Shown: positions 1-15,077 of the stretch, piece by piece
How positions within the stretch are numbered: the stretch's first letter is position 1
How the letters are laid out: every line of letters begins with the position of its first letter
DNA from: a virus
Virus record (IMG/VR): IMGVR_UViG_3300042320_000681
Span: 1 to 22,907 of that record
Strand: one strand, 5' to 3'
DNA: 22,907 bases
Translations under genes and position numbers: made by a program
Notes under the pieces: generated by a model
What the model was told of the DNA's origin: nothing
What the model saw: the letters and a program-made list of their open reading frames with translations, nothing else
Database searches by the model: none

Positions 1-1659
1 CAAGAAATCTCGCGGCTTGGAGTTGTCAACAAGGCAAGCAAAAAAGATGTTAAACCGGGAGGCGAATACGCTGACACACTTGTTCGCGGATCATCGATTC
101 TTGGACCCAAGATTGGAAATGGATTCTTCAGCAACCTCTATGGTTTGTTCGATGCGTTGACGATGGATCGATGGTTGATCCGCACTTGGGGAAGGTGGAC
201 CGGGACATTGATTGAATTAAACCCGGAACTGACCGAGCAAGCGGCAACCAGAACGATGGAAGCAGTCAATAAACTGACTGATGATGATATGGCGCGATTC
301 GATGAAATGCTTGGTAGAGACATTTCGGAGATGAGCGTCGAGGAGTTGGCGACCGCAATTCAAAAGGCGTCGATGAAACCTGAATTGCGCGAGGTGATGA
401 ACAAGACTGAAACCGGGGAGGAATTAAGGAAGTCCGGGAATGGTCTTGCAAAATACCTCGATGGTCAGAAGGAAGCCCCGGCAAGTCCTGCTGAACGAAA
501 TTTCATACGAGAAATTTTTGGATTGATGTTGGATGATTTGAAGTCCGATCCGAAATATGCGGGGTTAACTATGGCAGACTTGCAGGCAGTTCTGTGGTAT
601 GCTGAAAAGCGTCTTTATGAGACTGCCAAGGTAAAGGACGATCAGGAAAATCTTGACGAATCAGATGCCGAGGGCTATGAGGACGAGGAAGCCCCAGATT
701 ACGCCAATGCCGCAATCGGAGTTGCTCGTAAAAAAGGCGTTTCTGAAAAACGAATTCAACAAGCAATAGAAAAAGTAAAAAATGACCGCACAACAACTAC
801 ACGATCTACAACTGAAGGACGGGGTGGAGATCAATCCGGGGAGCAGGAAAGTGCTGGAGGGTTTACTGACTCAAAAGAAAAACAAAAGTTCAAGCACTAT
901 GTCGCCGCCTCAACAGCAAGACGCAATCGAGTGGGCAATGCAAAGGCACTCTGGACTTACGCGAGAAAAAGCGATGGAGATGGTGGAGAGTTACGGGTTT
1001 TAAAACCTAAATCTAAAAAGAATCTTGGAATAAAATATATTTCCGAATGGAAGCCGGGGAGAAAACTGGCAACCATGTTCAGGAATAATGAACTGCCAGT
1101 TGTTAGATTTTTAGAACTTGACTCGACTGACAAACCATCAGCACAGAAATTTGCAGATACTCTTCAACAAAGCAAGGATGAGGCAAAATTTGGTGCGGCA
1201 GTTAATGTATATCCAGTCGAAGATTACCAAGGCATGAAATTATTCATGTCAGAATCTGGAAAATCTGGATTTGCTGTTAAACCTGACGGAGACATTGTTT
1301 CTGTTTTCAGCATGGAAAAGGGTAGCAGTAGAAGTATATTGGAAGCGGCAATTTCGGCTGGAGGAAAAAAATTAGATGCTTTTGATACAATTCTTCCGAG
1401 GCTTTATGGAGAGCATGGATTTGTTGAAGCGTCAAGAATTCCTTGGAACGATGAGTTTTCGCCTGAAGGATGGAATAAACAAACATTCCAAGAATTTAAT
1501 GAAGGAGAACCTGATGTTGTGATGATGGTGCTTGATCCAAATTTTGAAGGGCAATACACACCCCGCACCGACATTTACGCTACTGACTATGACACAGCAG
1601 TAGGAATGCAGAATGCACTTTTGCAACAGGTCGAGAAATCTGGTAAAAAGAAAAAGTAA
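1..1659 (+). CDS. C-terminal part of a large phage polyvalent-type protein (5' end outside window)
   Basis: The frame is open from base 1 to the TAA at 1657-1659, about 552 codons, so the true start lies to the left. Near the left edge (nt 103-174) it carries GPKIGNGFF followed by ALTMDRW, a motif pair I associate with very long phage polyvalent proteins injected or packaged with the genome. A charged, acidic helical stretch follows, then a linker rich in Thr, Arg, Ser and Gly (about nt 780-1000). A compact C-terminal domain (about nt 1075-1600) shows SGFAVKPDGDIVSVF, LDAFDTILPRLYGEHGF and PDVVMMVLDP. I have a sense of this domain recurring at the ends of phage polyvalent proteins, but its activity is unknown to me. 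It sits just upstream of a tRNA, as the last large gene of a late block. A second reading frame inside the linker (782-1003) is described separately. Confidence 0.8.
   Translation, partial: QEISRLGVVNKASKKDVKPGGEYADTLVRGSSILGPKIGNGFFSNLYGLFDALTMDRWLIRTWGRWTGTLIELNPELTEQAATRTMEAVNKLTDDDMARFDEMLGRDISEMSVEELATAIQKASMKPELREVMNKTETGEELRKSGNGLAKYLDGQKEAPASPAERNFIREIFGLMLDDLKSDPKYAGLTMADLQAVLWYAEKRLYETAKVKDDQENLDESDAEGYEDEEAPDYANAAIGVARKKGVSEKRIQQAIEKVKNDRTTTTRSTTEGRGGDQSGEQESAGGFTDSKEKQKFKHYVAASTARRNRVGNAKALWTYARKSDGDGGELRVLKPKSKKNLGIKYISEWKPGRKLATMFRNNELPVVRFLELDSTDKPSAQKFADTLQQSKDEAKFGAAVNVYPVEDYQGMKLFMSESGKSGFAVKPDGDIVSVFSMEKGSSRSILEAAISAGGKKLDAFDTILPRLYGEHGFVEASRIPWNDEFSPEGWNKQTFQEFNEGEPDVVMMVLDPNFEGQYTPRTDIYATDYDTAVGMQNALLQQVEKSGKKKK
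782..1003 (+). CDS. nested small ORF in an alternative frame inside the polyvalent gene
   Basis: This 73-codon ORF lies entirely inside the preceding gene, in frame +2 relative to the window. An in-frame TAA sits just before its ATG. Its last 34 codons, from a second ATG at 899, read MSPPQQQDAIEWAMQRHSGL and then end in REKAMEMVESYGF. This strongly resembles small stand-alone phage proteins of the type 'amphipathic helix + GLTREKA + GF-stop'. Over the same bases the host frame is low-complexity, so this frame looks the more protein-like here. It may be a real nested gene, a relic of a once-separate gene, or coincidence. No ribosome-binding site decides the start. Confidence 0.35.
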   Translation: MTAQQLHDLQLKDGVEINPGSRKVLEGLLTQKKNKSSSTMSPPQQQDAIEWAMQRHSGLTREKAMEMVESYGF

Positions 1660-1660
1660 T

Positions 1661-1819
1661 ATGCCTCTCCGAAAATGTGCTTCCCAAAATTGTTTTGACC
1701 GCAACATTGCGACTGAAATTCGGGCAGGCAAAAAGCCAGCGCAAGCCGCCGCAATTGCCTACTCTGTGCAACGCAAGGCGAGGGCAAAAAAAGCGGCGGC
1801 GACTCGCAAGAAAAAGTAA
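1661..1819 (+). CDS. small basic phage protein
   Basis: The 52-residue protein starts at the ATG right after the upstream stop (TAA 1657-1659). It contains NIATEIRAGKKPAQAAAIAY followed by a Lys/Arg/Ala-rich tail ending in KKK. The pattern 'NI..EI.AGK...QA.AIA' is familiar from many small hypothetical proteins of tailed phages; no activity is known to me. Its high positive charge suggests nucleic-acid binding or DNA compaction, which is inference. It is translationally close-coupled to the polyvalent gene and is followed four bases later by the tRNA gene, so all three are probably one transcript. Confidence 0.7.
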   Translation: MPLRKCASQNCFDRNIATEIRAGKKPAQAAAIAYSVQRKARAKKAAATRKKK

Positions 1820-1823
1820 TTTC

Positions 1824-1894
1824 CGCAGGATAGAGAAACGGTATCTCGTCAGGCCCATAACCTGAAGTTGAGGGTTCGATTCCCTCTCCTGCAA
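1824..1894 (+). tRNA. tRNA with CAU anticodon and initiator (fMet) signatures
   Basis: A full 71-base cloverleaf folds by eye. Acceptor strands are 1824-1830 and 1887-1893, with six pairs plus a C1 x A72 mismatch. The D stem GAGA/TCTC (1833-1836, 1844-1847) has loop AACGGTA carrying G18G19. The anticodon stem TCAGG/CCTGA (1849-1853, 1861-1865) has loop CCCATAA with anticodon CAT. The T arm is GAGGG-TTCGATT-CCCTC (1870-1886), and the discriminator is A at 1894. CCA is not encoded; ACC then CC follows. The C1 x A72 mismatch and A11:U24 pair are classic bacterial initiator features. G30:C40 and G31:C39 are kept, but pair 29:41 is A:U, and base 33 is C instead of U. Elongator tRNA-Met or an Ile2-type tRNA are alternatives, less consistent with the mismatch. 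Confidence 0.9.
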
Positions 1895-1897
1895 CCC

Positions 1898-1919
1898 CGC
1901 GAAGCTAGTGTTTATGCGG
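1898..1919. repeat. 22-bp inverted repeat, copy 1
   Basis: The 22 bases 1898-1919 are the exact reverse complement of 5254-5275. A shorter, diverged relative of the second copy's orientation lies at 12650-12666. This copy begins four bases after the tRNA discriminator and is itself flanked by CCCGC (1896-1900) and GCGGG (1916-1920), which can pair as a five-bp stem around it. It precedes the promoter at 1999 by about 80 bases. Its role could be transcript end formation, RNA processing or recombination. Confidence 0.75.
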
Positions 1920-1930
1920 GTCTGCGGACT

Positions 1931-2026
1931 GCTTGGGTTTTCGATCAAGCGTCAAGCAAAAATGTTTTTACTATGACACAACAGATAAAAAATAATCATT
2001 GATAACCCAAGCGGATTTGGTATTGT
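1931..2026 (+). promoter_or_regulatory. promoter A with two copies of a 9-base operator-like motif
   Basis: TTGATA (1999-2004) and TATTGT (2021-2026) are separated by 16 bases, a reasonable sigma70-type promoter. AACCCAAGC (2004-2012) overlaps the -35 end, and its exact reverse complement GCTTGGGTT lies upstream at 1931-1939. An ATGACA sequence lies 26 bases upstream of the -35 (1973-1978), followed by an A/T-rich stretch. The same arrangement recurs at 3620-3675 and 5278-5331. The predicted start of transcription is only a few bases before the ATG at 2037, so the transcript would be nearly leaderless. The gap 1895-2036 holds nothing else I can support. Confidence 0.6.
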
Positions 2027-2036
2027 GGTTGGCGTT

Positions 2037-2234
2037 ATGAACATCAACAAAATTCTATCGACTCGCGAATGGATTGCTTTCATCGATGACGAGCGATCAA
2101 TCGGAAACAGCATTGTAGTCACCCTGAAAAACGGGTGGCACTTTGCAAACGGAGACAAAGAGGGGGTGCGTGGATACGACACTTTTTCTGAAGTCAAGGC
2201 AGACACAAAAAAATCAAATGTAATTAAGAAATGA
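2037..2234 (+). CDS. hypothetical protein, first gene of the early region
   Basis: The 65-residue protein begins at the ATG at 2037, chosen because the promoter -10 element ends at 2026 and no ribosome-binding site fits the upstream GTG at 2025. It contains TREWIAFIDDERSIGNSIVV and then LKNGWHFANGDKEGVRGYDTF, which looks like a small beta-rich fold. I do not recognise a family. The stop overlaps the next start (ATGA at 2231-2234), so it opens a translationally coupled run of small genes (2037-2715). Early expression is likely from its promoter position. Confidence 0.7.
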   Translation: MNINKILSTREWIAFIDDERSIGNSIVVTLKNGWHFANGDKEGVRGYDTFSEVKADTKKSNVIKK

Positions 2235-2494
2235 ACATCACACCACCCACAGTCCACCTGAACGGAACCTCTGTCAAAGACCTCTGGGCAGGCTACGAGG
2301 CGGCATACGATGCCGTGCGAGCCGCGCAGGAGGCAATAGGCAAGATTGAATTCAACGCCCGTGATTATTGGGTACAAGGACCAGATGCTTTCACAAAAGC
2401 AAGAGTCCACCGTTGCGAACAAATAAAAGCATTAGCAGAAGTAGAGAATTATCTTTTTGAACATCTACTTGCAATCCGGGAGCAAGAAAAATGA
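2231..2494 (+). CDS. conserved small phage protein (helical)
   Basis: The 87-residue protein has VHLNGTS near the N terminus, then an alpha-helical region, then ARDYWVQGPDAFTKAR in the middle, and ends in a long helix (LAEVENYLFEHLLAIREQ). The pattern 'HLNGTS ... RDYxxQGPDAFxxAR' is one I recognise from many small uncharacterised proteins in tailed-phage genomes; no function is established to my knowledge. It overlaps both neighbours by ATGA, so expression is coupled. Predicted cytosolic, with no signal or membrane segment. Confidence 0.75.
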   Translation: MNITPPTVHLNGTSVKDLWAGYEAAYDAVRAAQEAIGKIEFNARDYWVQGPDAFTKARVHRCEQIKALAEVENYLFEHLLAIREQEK

Positions 2495-2715
2495 GCAACA
2501 AAGAAGCACTCGCGACTCACCTTGGTTGGGACATCGATGACATCGAGTATTACCAACCATGCACATGGTCACGCAAAATTGTGACTACTGATGACAACTG
2601 GTATTGTGCTACACGATCAGAGAAGACTCCCGTTGTTACATCGACGCATGGAGACAAAATCACCGACTGGCAATTGGTCGAAACGCTAGGAAAAATCAAG
2701 GTCTGGAGACGATAA
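2491..2715 (+). CDS. hypothetical small phage protein
   Basis: The 74-residue protein has no recognisable family. The N terminus has HLGWDIDDIEYYQPC, and the middle has several aromatic and charged beta-strand-like segments (NWYCATRSEKTPVV), ending in WRR. The start overlaps the previous stop (ATGA 2491-2494), which fixes it well. It is the last gene of the first coupled run; after its stop there are 45 bases before the next ATG. Confidence 0.65.
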   Translation: MSNKEALATHLGWDIDDIEYYQPCTWSRKIVTTDDNWYCATRSEKTPVVTSTHGDKITDWQLVETLGKIKVWRR

Positions 2716-2760
2716 GCCCCCGTGATTTGACAAAGCCGCACCTTGCCTCATTTTTGCGAC

Positions 2761-2988
2761 ATGGCGCGGCCTAAAAATCATCCAGCATTCCCATTCCCCG
2801 GAGGGACCAATCCTCCGGTGCGAAGCAACTCTGGGATGTCCATGCGTGACTGGTTTGCAGGTTCTGCCTTGCAGGGCTACAGAGCAAGTGATAAGTATTC
2901 CCAAGCAGATTCGCGACTGGTGGCAGACCTGTCATTCCAAGACGCTGACGCAATGCTAGAGAAACGAGAAAACCAAATACATGAATAA
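2761..2988 (+). CDS. small phage protein with GMSMRDWFAG motif
   Basis: The ATG at 2761 gives 75 residues; a TTG at 2743 in the same frame is less likely. The start of the protein is Pro/Asn-rich (NHPAFPFPGG), followed by GMSMRDWFAGSALQGY. This '[GD]M[ST]xRDxFAxxAL' motif is very common in small uncharacterised phage proteins. The remainder is helical and charged. A weak TTGACA lies at 2727-2732, but no convincing -10 follows. The stop overlaps the next gene's ATG at 2981. Confidence 0.75.
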   Translation: MARPKNHPAFPFPGGTNPPVRSNSGMSMRDWFAGSALQGYRASDKYSQADSRLVADLSFQDADAMLEKRENQIHE

Positions 2989-3286
2989 CGATAATAACAA
3001 TACCAACAACGAAGCACCTGAAATGCCGGGAACCCCGGAGCAAGAGGTGCAGAACTCCATCCAGTCGATCCTCGCCGGGATCGATTTCGAGAAGATCACC
3101 AAGGACGATGTGTTCCATGATCTCATGCACAATGCAAAACTCTTCAGCTTCCGCCTTATGGTTGCGAGTGCGCTTTTAGAGCAACTGCACCTTCGTGGAG
3201 TTGTGGCAACTCCAACGCAAGAAGCACAAGAAAACCCTGACAATGTTGTCAGGTTTGATGAGCAAGAGCAGGAACCGAAATCGTGA
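2981..3286 (+). CDS. hypothetical phage protein, Asn/Glu-rich N terminus
   Basis: The 101-residue protein starts at ATG 2981, overlapping the previous gene by eight bases. The first 20 residues are rich in Asn and Asp, so probably disordered. A helical core follows (EQEVQNSIQSILAGIDFEKI, then HDLMHNAKLFSFRLMVASALLEQLHLRG). The C-terminal 25 residues are acidic. No family is recognised. The stop TGA (3284-3286) overlaps a GTG start (3283) of the next small gene. Confidence 0.65.
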   Translation: MNNDNNNTNNEAPEMPGTPEQEVQNSIQSILAGIDFEKITKDDVFHDLMHNAKLFSFRLMVASALLEQLHLRGVVATPTQEAQENPDNVVRFDEQEQEPKS

Positions 3287-7563: not shown

Positions 7564-7889
7564 GTCAATATCCTTATCCAGTAAAAATAAAACAAGAATT
7601 GGCACAAATAATACAAACTGACCTAGAAATTTGGCTTGCAAATCATGGTCCGAATTGGGCTGAACCATTTGTCACCCTTGACTCAAAAGGAAATGGATTT
7701 TATGTGTCTCTTACTGAAGACTTTGAACATGATAAATTATTATCGTGGTCTAACTTTATAGAGCAACAAAAATGCCCAGAATTTGCGTCAATTACTGCGG
7801 CAAAGAAACATCTTAAAAATGTTAAAAAATTAGTTAAGATGCTTGAATTTGAAATTCAACAAATGGAAAAACATGAAAGAAAAACATAA
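7560..7889 (+). CDS. hypothetical AT-rich phage gene
   Basis: The 109-residue protein starts in an ATGA overlap (7560-7563), after a GAGGAG ribosome site. It has a globular N-terminal part with aromatic residues (TDLEIWLANHGPNWAEPF and GNGFYVSLTEDFE), then a basic helical C terminus (AKKHLKNVKKLVKMLEFEI). No family recognised. The gene is clearly more AT-rich than the nuclease before it, which suggests separate acquisition. Confidence 0.65.
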   Translation: MSQYPYPVKIKQELAQIIQTDLEIWLANHGPNWAEPFVTLDSKGNGFYVSLTEDFEHDKLLSWSNFIEQQKCPEFASITAAKKHLKNVKKLVKMLEFEIQQMEKHERKT

Positions 7890-8094
7890 TGAATTTATGG
7901 GATTCCCTCTTCGTTGCGTCCCGGCGCATCAAGACGATTGCGAACGGTGGGACTACGAAGTCGAGATCGATGGCACTTGGCATGATGTAATCCCCGGAGG
8001 ATTGAGATGGAATCGGGAAGAAGCACTCGATTCCTTGGTAAAAATATTAAAAAATAAAATAAATAAATATGAATCAGTTAGAATTAAGTCTTGA
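7873..8094 (+). CDS. hypothetical small phage protein
   Basis: Starting at ATG 7873 (17 bases inside the previous gene) the product is 73 residues. Landmarks are MGFPLRCVPAHQDDCERWDY and GTWHDVIPGGLRWNREEA. A Trp-rich beta core is followed by a basic, AT-rich C-terminal helix. The later ATG at 7897 (MGFPLR) is a possible alternative start. The AT-rich 3' end contains the leader AAATAAATAAAT of the next gene, whose ATG (8069) lies inside this frame. Confidence 0.55.
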   Translation: MKEKHNEFMGFPLRCVPAHQDDCERWDYEVEIDGTWHDVIPGGLRWNREEALDSLVKILKNKINKYESVRIKS

Positions 8095-8398
8095 ACCACT
8101 TGTTGAAATCAAAGGGGACAGCATCCCAGAACGCTTTAAGCGATTCCATGCCGCCAACCCCCATGTTTACGATGCGCTTGTGAATTTAGCCAGACGCTTT
8201 CGGGAGCGTAGAGAATCAAAGATCGGGATCGGAATGTTGTACGAAGTACTCCGGTGGAACTACTACATGACAACCGAATCAGAGGACGATTACAAGTTAT
8301 CGAACGATTTTCGGGCTTGCTACGCTCGACTGATTATGAGCCAAGAATCAGACTTAAAAGGAATTTTCCAGACTAAAAAAAGCATAGCAGATGATTGA
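8069..8398 (+). CDS. conserved phage protein with FHAANPHVYDAL motif
   Basis: The 109-residue protein matches a small family I recognise from many phages: RFKRFHAANPHVYDALVNLA (about 22-41), KIGIGMLYEVLRW (about 51-63), KLSNDFRACYARLIM (about 76-90), ending LKGIFQTKKSIADD. It is entirely helical with no established function; its usual place is near replication genes or HNH nucleases, consistent with its location here. It overlaps the previous gene by 26 bases and the next by eight. Confidence 0.85.
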   Translation: MNQLELSLEPLVEIKGDSIPERFKRFHAANPHVYDALVNLARRFRERRESKIGIGMLYEVLRWNYYMTTESEDDYKLSNDFRACYARLIMSQESDLKGIFQTKKSIADD

Positions 8399-8744
8399 AA
8401 TGATTAATAAAATTATAAATCCCAAGATATGTTTTGAAGAATTTGATTTTGATATAAATGAAATATTGGAAATTAAAGATGAATCAATTGTTTCTCCTGA
8501 TGAAAATGCAAATGTTAAATTAATAAATGAATATTTATTTAAATGTATTAATCAATTTTCGCCACAAGAACAGTTTGTAATAATAAAAAGATTTGGTTTT
8601 TGTGGAAATAATCCTGAATCGCTTTCATCTATCTCAAAACAAATTGGAAGAGGCAGAGAAAGAGTTAGGCAAATTGAAAGCAAAGTAATTAGAGGATTGC
8701 GTCATCCTCGTTTTAAAATAACAGAATTAATAAATGAAATTTAA
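8391..8744 (+). CDS. sigma-70 region 4-only protein
   Basis: The 117-residue protein has a ~50-residue acidic, AT-rich N-terminal part without recognised sigma domains. Then comes a near-textbook sigma region 4: INQFSPQEQFVIIKRFGF (53-70), LSSISKQIGRGRERVRQIES (78-97) and VIRGLRHPRF (99-108). The RERxRQIE recognition helix contacts the -35 element in housekeeping sigma factors. Regions 2 and 3, needed for -10 recognition and melting, are absent. It could dock on the RNA polymerase beta-flap and redirect -35 choice, act as an activator, or simply be a region-4-like DNA-binding protein. The gene is strikingly AT-rich compared with its right neighbour. Confidence 0.85.
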   Translation: MIEMINKIINPKICFEEFDFDINEILEIKDESIVSPDENANVKLINEYLFKCINQFSPQEQFVIIKRFGFCGNNPESLSSISKQIGRGRERVRQIESKVIRGLRHPRFKITELINEI

Positions 8745-13752: not shown

Positions 13753-13962
13753 ATGTACATCATTGTCAGAATCCATCAGGACAACGGCAAATGGGAAATC
13801 GTCCCCGGCTATCCTCCAACGCATATCCACAAAGATTATGTTCACGCTCAAGCGGAGGCGCAACGATTAGCTGGAGCGCATCCCGGAGTCCACTTCGCAA
13901 TCTTTGAACTCGACAAAGCGGCAACCTGTTCCGTAACCCCAGTAGACTGGATCAAGCTATGA
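13753..13962 (+). CDS. small conserved phage protein
   Basis: The 69-residue protein follows an AGGAG site (13740-13744). It reads YIIVRIHQDNGKWEIVPGYP, then HKDYVHAQAEAQRLAGAHPG and VHFAIFELDKAA. The alternating beta strands and 'A..EA.RLA..hPG..F.v.el' pattern recall small phage proteins of unknown function. The stop overlaps the next gene's ATG (ATGA 13959-13962). Confidence 0.7.
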   Translation: MYIIVRIHQDNGKWEIVPGYPPTHIHKDYVHAQAEAQRLAGAHPGVHFAIFELDKAATCSVTPVDWIKL

Positions 13963-15077
13963 GATTCCATGTATTAGGACTTCCACATACGATTACTTCA
14001 AAAGAGTTCAATGCCTGTGCCTACACGCAGAAAGTTGTCAAATTCGGGCGAATGATGACTGACCGGGGGCATGAGGTACTGCACTACGGTCATCGAGACT
14101 CTGACCTCATCTGTACCGAACACATTCCGGTGCTGGAGAACGAGGACTGGCAGGTTGCCTATGGGGACCATGACTGGCGCAAGACCTTCTTCAAATTTGA
14201 TGTGAACGATCATGCTTATCGTACCTTCTACGCAAATGCCATTCGAGAGGTTGGCAAGCGCAAGAAGCAGTTCGACTTCATCCTTCCCTTTTGGGGATCG
14301 GGAGTCAGGCCCATCTGCGATGCCCATCCTGACCTTATTTGCGTTGAACCGGGGATCGGGTACGCCGGGGGGCATTGGGCGCGGTGGAAAGTCTTTGAAA
14401 GCTATGCGATTTACCATGCTTATTGCGGTATGCAGGCAGTAGGCAATTGCAGGCAGGACTGGTACGAGGTGGTAATCCCGAATTACTTCGATCCAGAAGA
14501 CTTCACTTATCGGAGCAACCATGAGAAGGAAGACTATTTCCTGTACCTTGGCAGGGTCTATAGCGGCAAGGGATGCGATGTGGCATTTCAGGCGGCGGAA
14601 CGAGCAGGAGTGCGGCTAGTGGTGGCGGGACAGATTGAGCCGGGATATAAGATTCCAGACCATGTCGAGTACATTGGCTACGCTGACATCGAGAAGCGGC
14701 GTGAGTTGATGAGCAAGGCCAAGGGTTCCCTCATCCCTTCGCAATATGTCGAGCCATTCGGTGGGGTCCAGATCGAGAACCTATTCTCTGGTACACCGAC
14801 CATCACCACCGATTGGGGTTCGTTTGCAGAAAACAATCTTCACGGGGTTACGGGATATCGATGCCGCACGATGGGAGACTTTGTTGAGGCAATCAAGCAG
14901 GTCGAGCAAGGCATGATCAAAAGCATCAATTGCCAAGTATGGGCTAGCAACTTCAGCTTGGATAGGGTTGGCGCGATGTACGACAAGTATTTCGCGGATG
15001 TGCTGGATGTCCATGTCGGCAAAGGGTGGTATTCGGACTGCAATGGGATTGATGCGATGAGGAGGGTGATGCCATGA
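13959..15077 (+). CDS. GT4-type glycosyltransferase
   Basis: The 372-residue protein has a GT-B architecture. An N-terminal acceptor domain is followed by the donor-binding domain starting at FLYLGRVYSGKGCDVAF (194-210), then RLVVAGQIEPGY (219-230), and the GT4 signature EPFGGVQIE (E265-x7-E273) followed by SGTPTITTDWGSFAE (277-291). These residues bind the nucleotide-sugar. The acceptor is unknown: virion protein, host surface glycan or modified DNA base are possible. No signal peptide, so cytosolic. It sits between TerS and TerL in a coupled run (ATGA overlaps both sides). Confidence 0.9.
   Translation: MRFHVLGLPHTITSKEFNACAYTQKVVKFGRMMTDRGHEVLHYGHRDSDLICTEHIPVLENEDWQVAYGDHDWRKTFFKFDVNDHAYRTFYANAIREVGKRKKQFDFILPFWGSGVRPICDAHPDLICVEPGIGYAGGHWARWKVFESYAIYHAYCGMQAVGNCRQDWYEVVIPNYFDPEDFTYRSNHEKEDYFLYLGRVYSGKGCDVAFQAAERAGVRLVVAGQIEPGYKIPDHVEYIGYADIEKRRELMSKAKGSLIPSQYVEPFGGVQIENLFSGTPTITTDWGSFAENNLHGVTGYRCRTMGDFVEAIKQVEQGMIKSINCQVWASNFSLDRVGAMYDKYFADVLDVHVGKGWYSDCNGIDAMRRVMP

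Follow-up and report, generated by a model that had tools for sequence, protein, structure and literature searches.

The purpose of the tRNA genes carried by phages is a long-standing question, and an initiator tRNA among them is not easily explained by codon compensation. The locus described here, within a 22,907-base virus record that is referred to as the window, raises this question in a specific form: what does a phage gain from a start tRNA of its own, and why does the anticodon loop of this tRNA carry C in place of U at position 33? That initiator tRNAs travel in phages is known and common; of interest is the occurrence of C33 throughout a family. Moreover, a conserved phage initiator whose anticodon arm stands one loop base apart from host-like initiators offers a clean comparison of C33 with U33 as a test of initiator supply, nuclease evasion and restriction to the ribosomal P site.

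The window contains a single tRNA, on which ARAGORN and Rfam agree. It is a complete tRNA(CAU) on the plus strand, reported by ARAGORN as tRNA-Met(cat) at 1824-1896 and matched over its full length by the Rfam model RF00005 at 1824-1894 with 59.8 bits and an E value of 7e-11, which excludes a chance match. Its parts are as follows.

1824..1894, plus strand: initiator-type tRNA(CAU) gene without encoded CCA, 71 nt up to discriminator A73 (ARAGORN, Rfam, compensatory evolution in relatives).
1824-1830/1887-1893, plus strand: acceptor stem, with C1xA72 as the sole unpaired pair, while all other stem pairs of the tRNA form.
1824..1824, plus strand: C1, open against A72 (1893), a formylation and initiator mark (sequence; mismatch in 9 of 9 same-site relatives).
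1834..1834, plus strand: A11 of the pair A11:U24 (U24 at 1846), an initiator mark (sequence; unchanged in relatives).
1849..1865, plus strand: anticodon arm TCAGG-CCCATAA-CCTGA with A29:U41, G30:C40, G31:C39 and C32 (sequence).
1855..1855, plus strand: C33 replacing U33 (sequence; shared by all 11 tRNA-bearing relatives obtained via the neighbouring ORF).

Position by position, the gene reads CGCAGGA TA GAGA AACGGTA TCTC G TCAGG CCCATAA CCTGA AGTT GAGGG TTCGATT CCCTC TCCTGCA A, with a D stem of GAGA/TCTC, a D loop of 7 nt, the anticodon CAU at 1856-1858, a variable loop of 4 nt (AGTT) and A73 as discriminator. CCA is absent from the gene, which is followed by CCC, and is encoded in some relatives. 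The coordinates and bases given in the first-pass annotation (C1xA72, A11:U24, A29:U41, G30:C40, G31:C39, C33, CAU) are all exact according to ARAGORN, Rfam and the sequence itself.

The surroundings of the gene became clearer through an IMG/VR contig of 62,375 bases, which shares 99.97% identity with window positions 1-3096 and also contains points sampled from the remainder of the window. As seen in this contig, the left ORF of the window forms the C-terminal end of a 3152-aa protein of the structural module. The elements flanking the tRNA are listed below.

1661..1819, plus strand: conserved basic 52-aa ORF directly 5' of the tRNA, its stop 4 nt ahead of C1 (277 viral relatives).
1895..1985, plus strand: conserved structured non-coding trailer with the hairpins CCCGC...GCGGG and GCTTG...CAAGC (8 relatives aligned, fold of -26 kcal/mol).
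1999..2026, plus strand: weakly supported promoter-like TTGATA-16-TATTGT of the next gene block downstream (consensus scan, aligned in relatives).

The 52-aa ORF had no match in a Pfam search, and the trailer at 1895-1985 had none in Rfam. The 62-kb contig encodes two further tRNAs, namely Leu(UAA) and a second CAU tRNA, which is of the elongator type (G1:C72, C11:G24, U33); elongation with CAU is thus covered by another gene. Elsewhere in the window, a small protein at 8391-8744 has sigma-70 region 4 (Pfam E 2e-8) as its sole domain and is a possible phage transcription regulator. The glycosyltransferase at 13959-15077 shares about 65% identity with its counterpart in Synechococcus phages ACG-2014f, yet the terminase large subunit (TerL) had no match among GenBank phages.

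In bacteria, formylation is determined by an open 1x72 position together with G2:C71, C3:G70 and A11:U24, P-site entry by the G:C pairs of the anticodon stem, and recognition by MetRS by the CAU anticodon (PMC7949028, PMC4611024). The window tRNA has an unpaired 1x72, which stays open in all relatives despite turnover of the bases, A11:U24, G2:C71 and C3:G70, which are invariant in relatives, and CAU with A73. Of the three G:C pairs at 29-31/39-41, two are present, while 29:41 is A:U; this feature does not strictly define the group, since A29:U41 occurs in initiators of Verrucomicrobiota and 29:41 varies in those of phages. The anticodon and the departure at 29:41 would also suit an elongator tRNA for Met or Ile2. 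None of the elongator characters (paired 1:72, C:G at 11:24, U33) is found in the window tRNA, however, the 1x72 mismatch and A11:U24 are maintained through sequence turnover, C33 would harm decoding in the A site, and the genome holds its separate elongator-type CAU tRNA. In addition, a naive Bayes classifier was trained to separate initiators from elongators among phage CAU tRNAs, which were labelled from 1:72 and 11:24, and scored with positions 1, 72, 11, 24, 30, 31, 33, 39 and 40 masked. It assigned +34 bits toward initiator to the window tRNA, +26 to +31 to its relatives and -52 to the second CAU tRNA of the genome; leave-one-out assignment was correct for 98% of initiators and 81% of elongators, so that 19% of the elongator set was misassigned. 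Elongator function is accordingly regarded as extremely improbable.

Relatives were fetched through the 52-aa ORF, a neutral bait that is blind to the tRNA and hence avoids bias. A tRNA directly follows this ORF in 11 of 80 loci, and all 11 are of the initiator type with C33; because most loci with the ORF lack a tRNA at this place, the tRNA is accessory. For covariation, loci found by pattern were added, giving a same-site set of 9 loci, among which 8 tRNA sequences are distinct. Compensatory changes among these 9 loci affect nine pairs (4:69, 7:66, 13:22, 27:43, 28:42, 29:41, 49:65, 50:64 and 51:63), while 1x72 is C.A, U.U or C.U and never paired, and A11:U24, G30:C40, G31:C39, 2:71, 3:70 and C33 remain unchanged. 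Stems that covary around an open 1x72 and fixed initiator marks point to selection for initiator function. The same-site initiators of L037, L045, L427 and L428 have longer D and variable loops and likewise carry C33. The phages with a C33 initiator tRNA at this shared site form a family. At the tRNA site of L294, a relative without the tRNA, another structured RNA candidate lies at about 7760-7910 (ATAGCAGG...CCTGCTAT, fold of -47 kcal/mol); it contains CTGATGAG, and an Rfam search of this hammerhead-like element at E 0.1 found nothing.

Attachment sites of temperate phages frequently include tRNA fragments, and the tRNA could in principle be a relic of such a site or a gene acquired from the host at the edge of a prophage. 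Here the tRNA is full-length and bears the traces of compensatory evolution, it occupies a fixed place between the 3152-aa virion protein with the 52-aa ORF and the replication genes, with virus genes on either side, and a scan of the ten larger window proteins revealed no integrase family, all of which leaves this origin with a negligible probability. On these sequence grounds, the initiator identity of the tRNA is strongly supported: it is best described as a selected initiator and neither an elongator nor a relic or attachment site. The call of the first-pass annotation is borne out by covariation around fixed marks, by the masked classifier and by the C33 relatives.

The same annotation took phage initiators to be unusual, a view that a scan of IMG/VR neutral at position 33 contradicts: among the matches listed (at least 120), 48 of 97 well-folded tRNAs are of the initiator type, and fMet tRNAs have been annotated in phages before (PMC7760394, PMC12429752). 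C33 is found in 3 of these 48 (about 6%, among the matches listed), and a scan of viral contigs for C33 only gave at least 120 matches. The pattern demands GG/CC at 30-31/39-40 and therefore under-counts other initiators; host flanks may be part of some viral contigs. By these counts, initiators are frequent in phages, and a small share of them, roughly 6%, has C33; a significance test against the 8 of 8 in the present family was discarded, because the members of a family are not independent. In the U33 phage initiators listed, the first pair of the anticodon stem is relaxed (A:U 22, U:A 12, G:C 10, C:G 1).

The further claim that C33 is rare in bacteria holds only in part: initiators that combine C33 with an open 1x72 are found on the chromosomes of Leuconostocaceae, Elusimicrobiota, Patescibacteria and Planctomycetota. 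Among 289 Verrucomicrobiota genomes, the listed initiators mostly read GGCTCATAACCTGAAGG, that is, A29:U41 with U33, and C33 appears in five listed genomes (G014, G184, G227, G241 and G245). A29:U41 is hence the normal chromosomal state in Verrucomicrobiota and is also found in Pseudomonadota; it prevails in most listed Verrucomicrobiota initiators although reviews call three G:C pairs universal in initiators. Among 200 Pseudomonadota genomes, C33 initiators occur in two only, one being a prophage of Ensifer, whose four chromosomal initiators have U33. This prophage tRNA (L065, about 2340; G307:C34:171132) has HNH, methyltransferase and repressor-like ORFs nearby. C33 is present in archaeal and many eukaryotic initiators, and the archaeal hits obtained here have C33, many of them with A11:U24. 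At about 1557 of L010, a viral contig of 62 kb, a C33 CAU tRNA combines A11:U24 with A1:U72 in an archaeal-like manner and may belong to an archaeal virus, while an elongator-type CAU tRNA (G1:C72, C11:G24) of Bipolaricaulota (L192, about 304) nevertheless has C33.

The structure, identity marks and conservation of the gene and the invariance of C33 in the family are observed directly, and from them we infer a course of expression, charging, formylation and ribosome use. The tRNA would be cut from a transcript running out of the late genes, receive CCA from the host and be charged by host MetRS via its CAU anticodon. The open 1x72 and A11:U24, with G2:C71 and C3:G70 present, would allow formylation, and G30:C40 and G31:C39 would permit entry into the 30S P site, by which means the phage tRNA may maintain the initiator pool during infection. 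A working phage-encoded initiator that keeps this pool up is, judged from sequence, a highly probable reading, and supply of initiator during infection is the most likely role of the tRNA.

An effect on start-site choice, favouring phage mRNAs devoid of Shine-Dalgarno (SD) sites, had also been suggested. The part of this idea that stands is that SD sites are missing in the phage: in the 62-kb genome, matches of at least 4 nt precede 22% of starts versus 21% at internal ATGs and random sites, although matches of at least 5 nt precede 11% versus 4-5% in the controls. The tie to the tRNA and to C33 does not stand, since SD sites precede 44% of starts (21% in the internal control) at viral loci with C33 initiators and 34% (control 17%) at those with U33 initiators. 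Across viral initiator loci no association of C33 with SD loss was detected (p=0.20, in the opposite direction); C33 in general is therefore no adaptation to SD loss. Moreover, phages and hosts without SD sites need no special initiator and the tRNA is missing from most relatives, so that this role is very unlikely.

As for C33 itself, the U-turn on which A-site decoding relies is formed by U33. Given this role and the C33 of archaeal and eukaryotic initiators, a C33 initiator should work in the P site and poorly in elongation: the change would remove the uridine needed by elongator loops in the A site, be tolerable in the P site, thereby bar the tRNA from elongation and perhaps make its loop a poorer target of anticodon nucleases. 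The tRNA of L037 differs from the chromosomal initiator of the Verrucomicrobiota genome G175 at 3 of 74 bases (96% identity), namely two D-loop bases and U33 to C; its nearest chromosomal initiators share 96-97% identity and have U33. As one pseudomonadotan chromosomal initiator is also 96% identical, Verrucomicrobiota (up to 97%) and this pseudomonadotan (96%) fit about equally as host or donor, and two weak TerL matches in 388 Verrucomicrobiota genomes are uninformative on the host. The anticodon arms of L037 and the window tRNA are identical, and position 33 is their sole difference from the arms of the nearest chromosomal initiators found.

That C33 was inherited from a host with a C33 initiator and then kept as a nearly neutral base is conceivable, though short of probable. 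Several lineages have C33 in their chromosomal initiators, those of the five C33 Verrucomicrobiota (see above) have an anticodon arm exactly equal to that of the window tRNA, and a static position 33 amid evolving stems is expected if donor and host both had C33; against this, the closest chromosomal sequences found have U33, and the C33 copy of Victivallales is only 88% identical to the L037 tRNA. Alternatively, a VapC-type nuclease of the host may deplete the host initiator during infection while the phage copy would be resistant through U33 to C. Initiator tRNA is a target of VapC toxins in several bacteria (PMC4105405, PMC8522696), the cut falling between A38 and C39 (PMC4105405). Overexpressed initiator gives cells a partial rescue from one such toxin (PMC8522696), and changes in the anticodon loops of phage tRNAs have been proposed to confer VapC resistance (PMC10264068). 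Supply of a changed initiator would thus be a reasonable candidate role. The restriction of the difference to position 33 in the window and L037 arms, the C33 of the Ensifer prophage in a genome whose four chromosomal initiators have U33, and the near absence of C33 from Pseudomonadota agree with this explanation. However, with C33 in no more than about 6% of the initiator-type tRNAs from phages (3 of 48, among the matches listed), the change is no general phage solution, and a VapC requirement at position 33 was not found in the cited VapC literature; nuclease evasion as the main reason is thus rather unlikely. Still more tentative, and doubtful as a whole, is the combined proposal that the family edited U33 to C in a host-like initiator which would thereby act in the P site only, survive host attack and replace the host start tRNA.

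Compared with known systems, the window tRNA, read here as a probable working initiator, shares with bacterial tRNA-fMet the 1x72 mismatch, A11:U24, G2:C71, C3:G70, A73, CAU, G30:C40 and G31:C39, and differs from it by C33, by A29:U41 instead of G29:C41, by its 7-nt D loop and 4-nt variable loop and by its residence in a phage genome. Archaeal initiators have C33 and often A11:U24 as well, whereas their A1:U72 is paired and C1xA72 is of the bacterial type. Erwinia jumbo phages (PMC7760394) and Sinorhizobium phiLM21-like prophages (PMC12429752) likewise hold an initiator gene within a phage genome; these are different phages, and discussion of position 33 was not found in the parts of the two reports consulted. 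Nuclease-insensitive phage tRNAs (PMC10264068) resemble the present one in an anticodon-loop change relative to cellular tRNAs, whereas fMet is mostly avoided by the enteric phages described there, including phages of Shigella, and resistance of the window tRNA is putative. Finally, in Verrucomicrobiota and some Pseudomonadota the chromosomal initiators (GGCTCATAACCTGAAGG) share the whole anticodon arm including A29:U41, with the exception of position 33, which is nearly always U.
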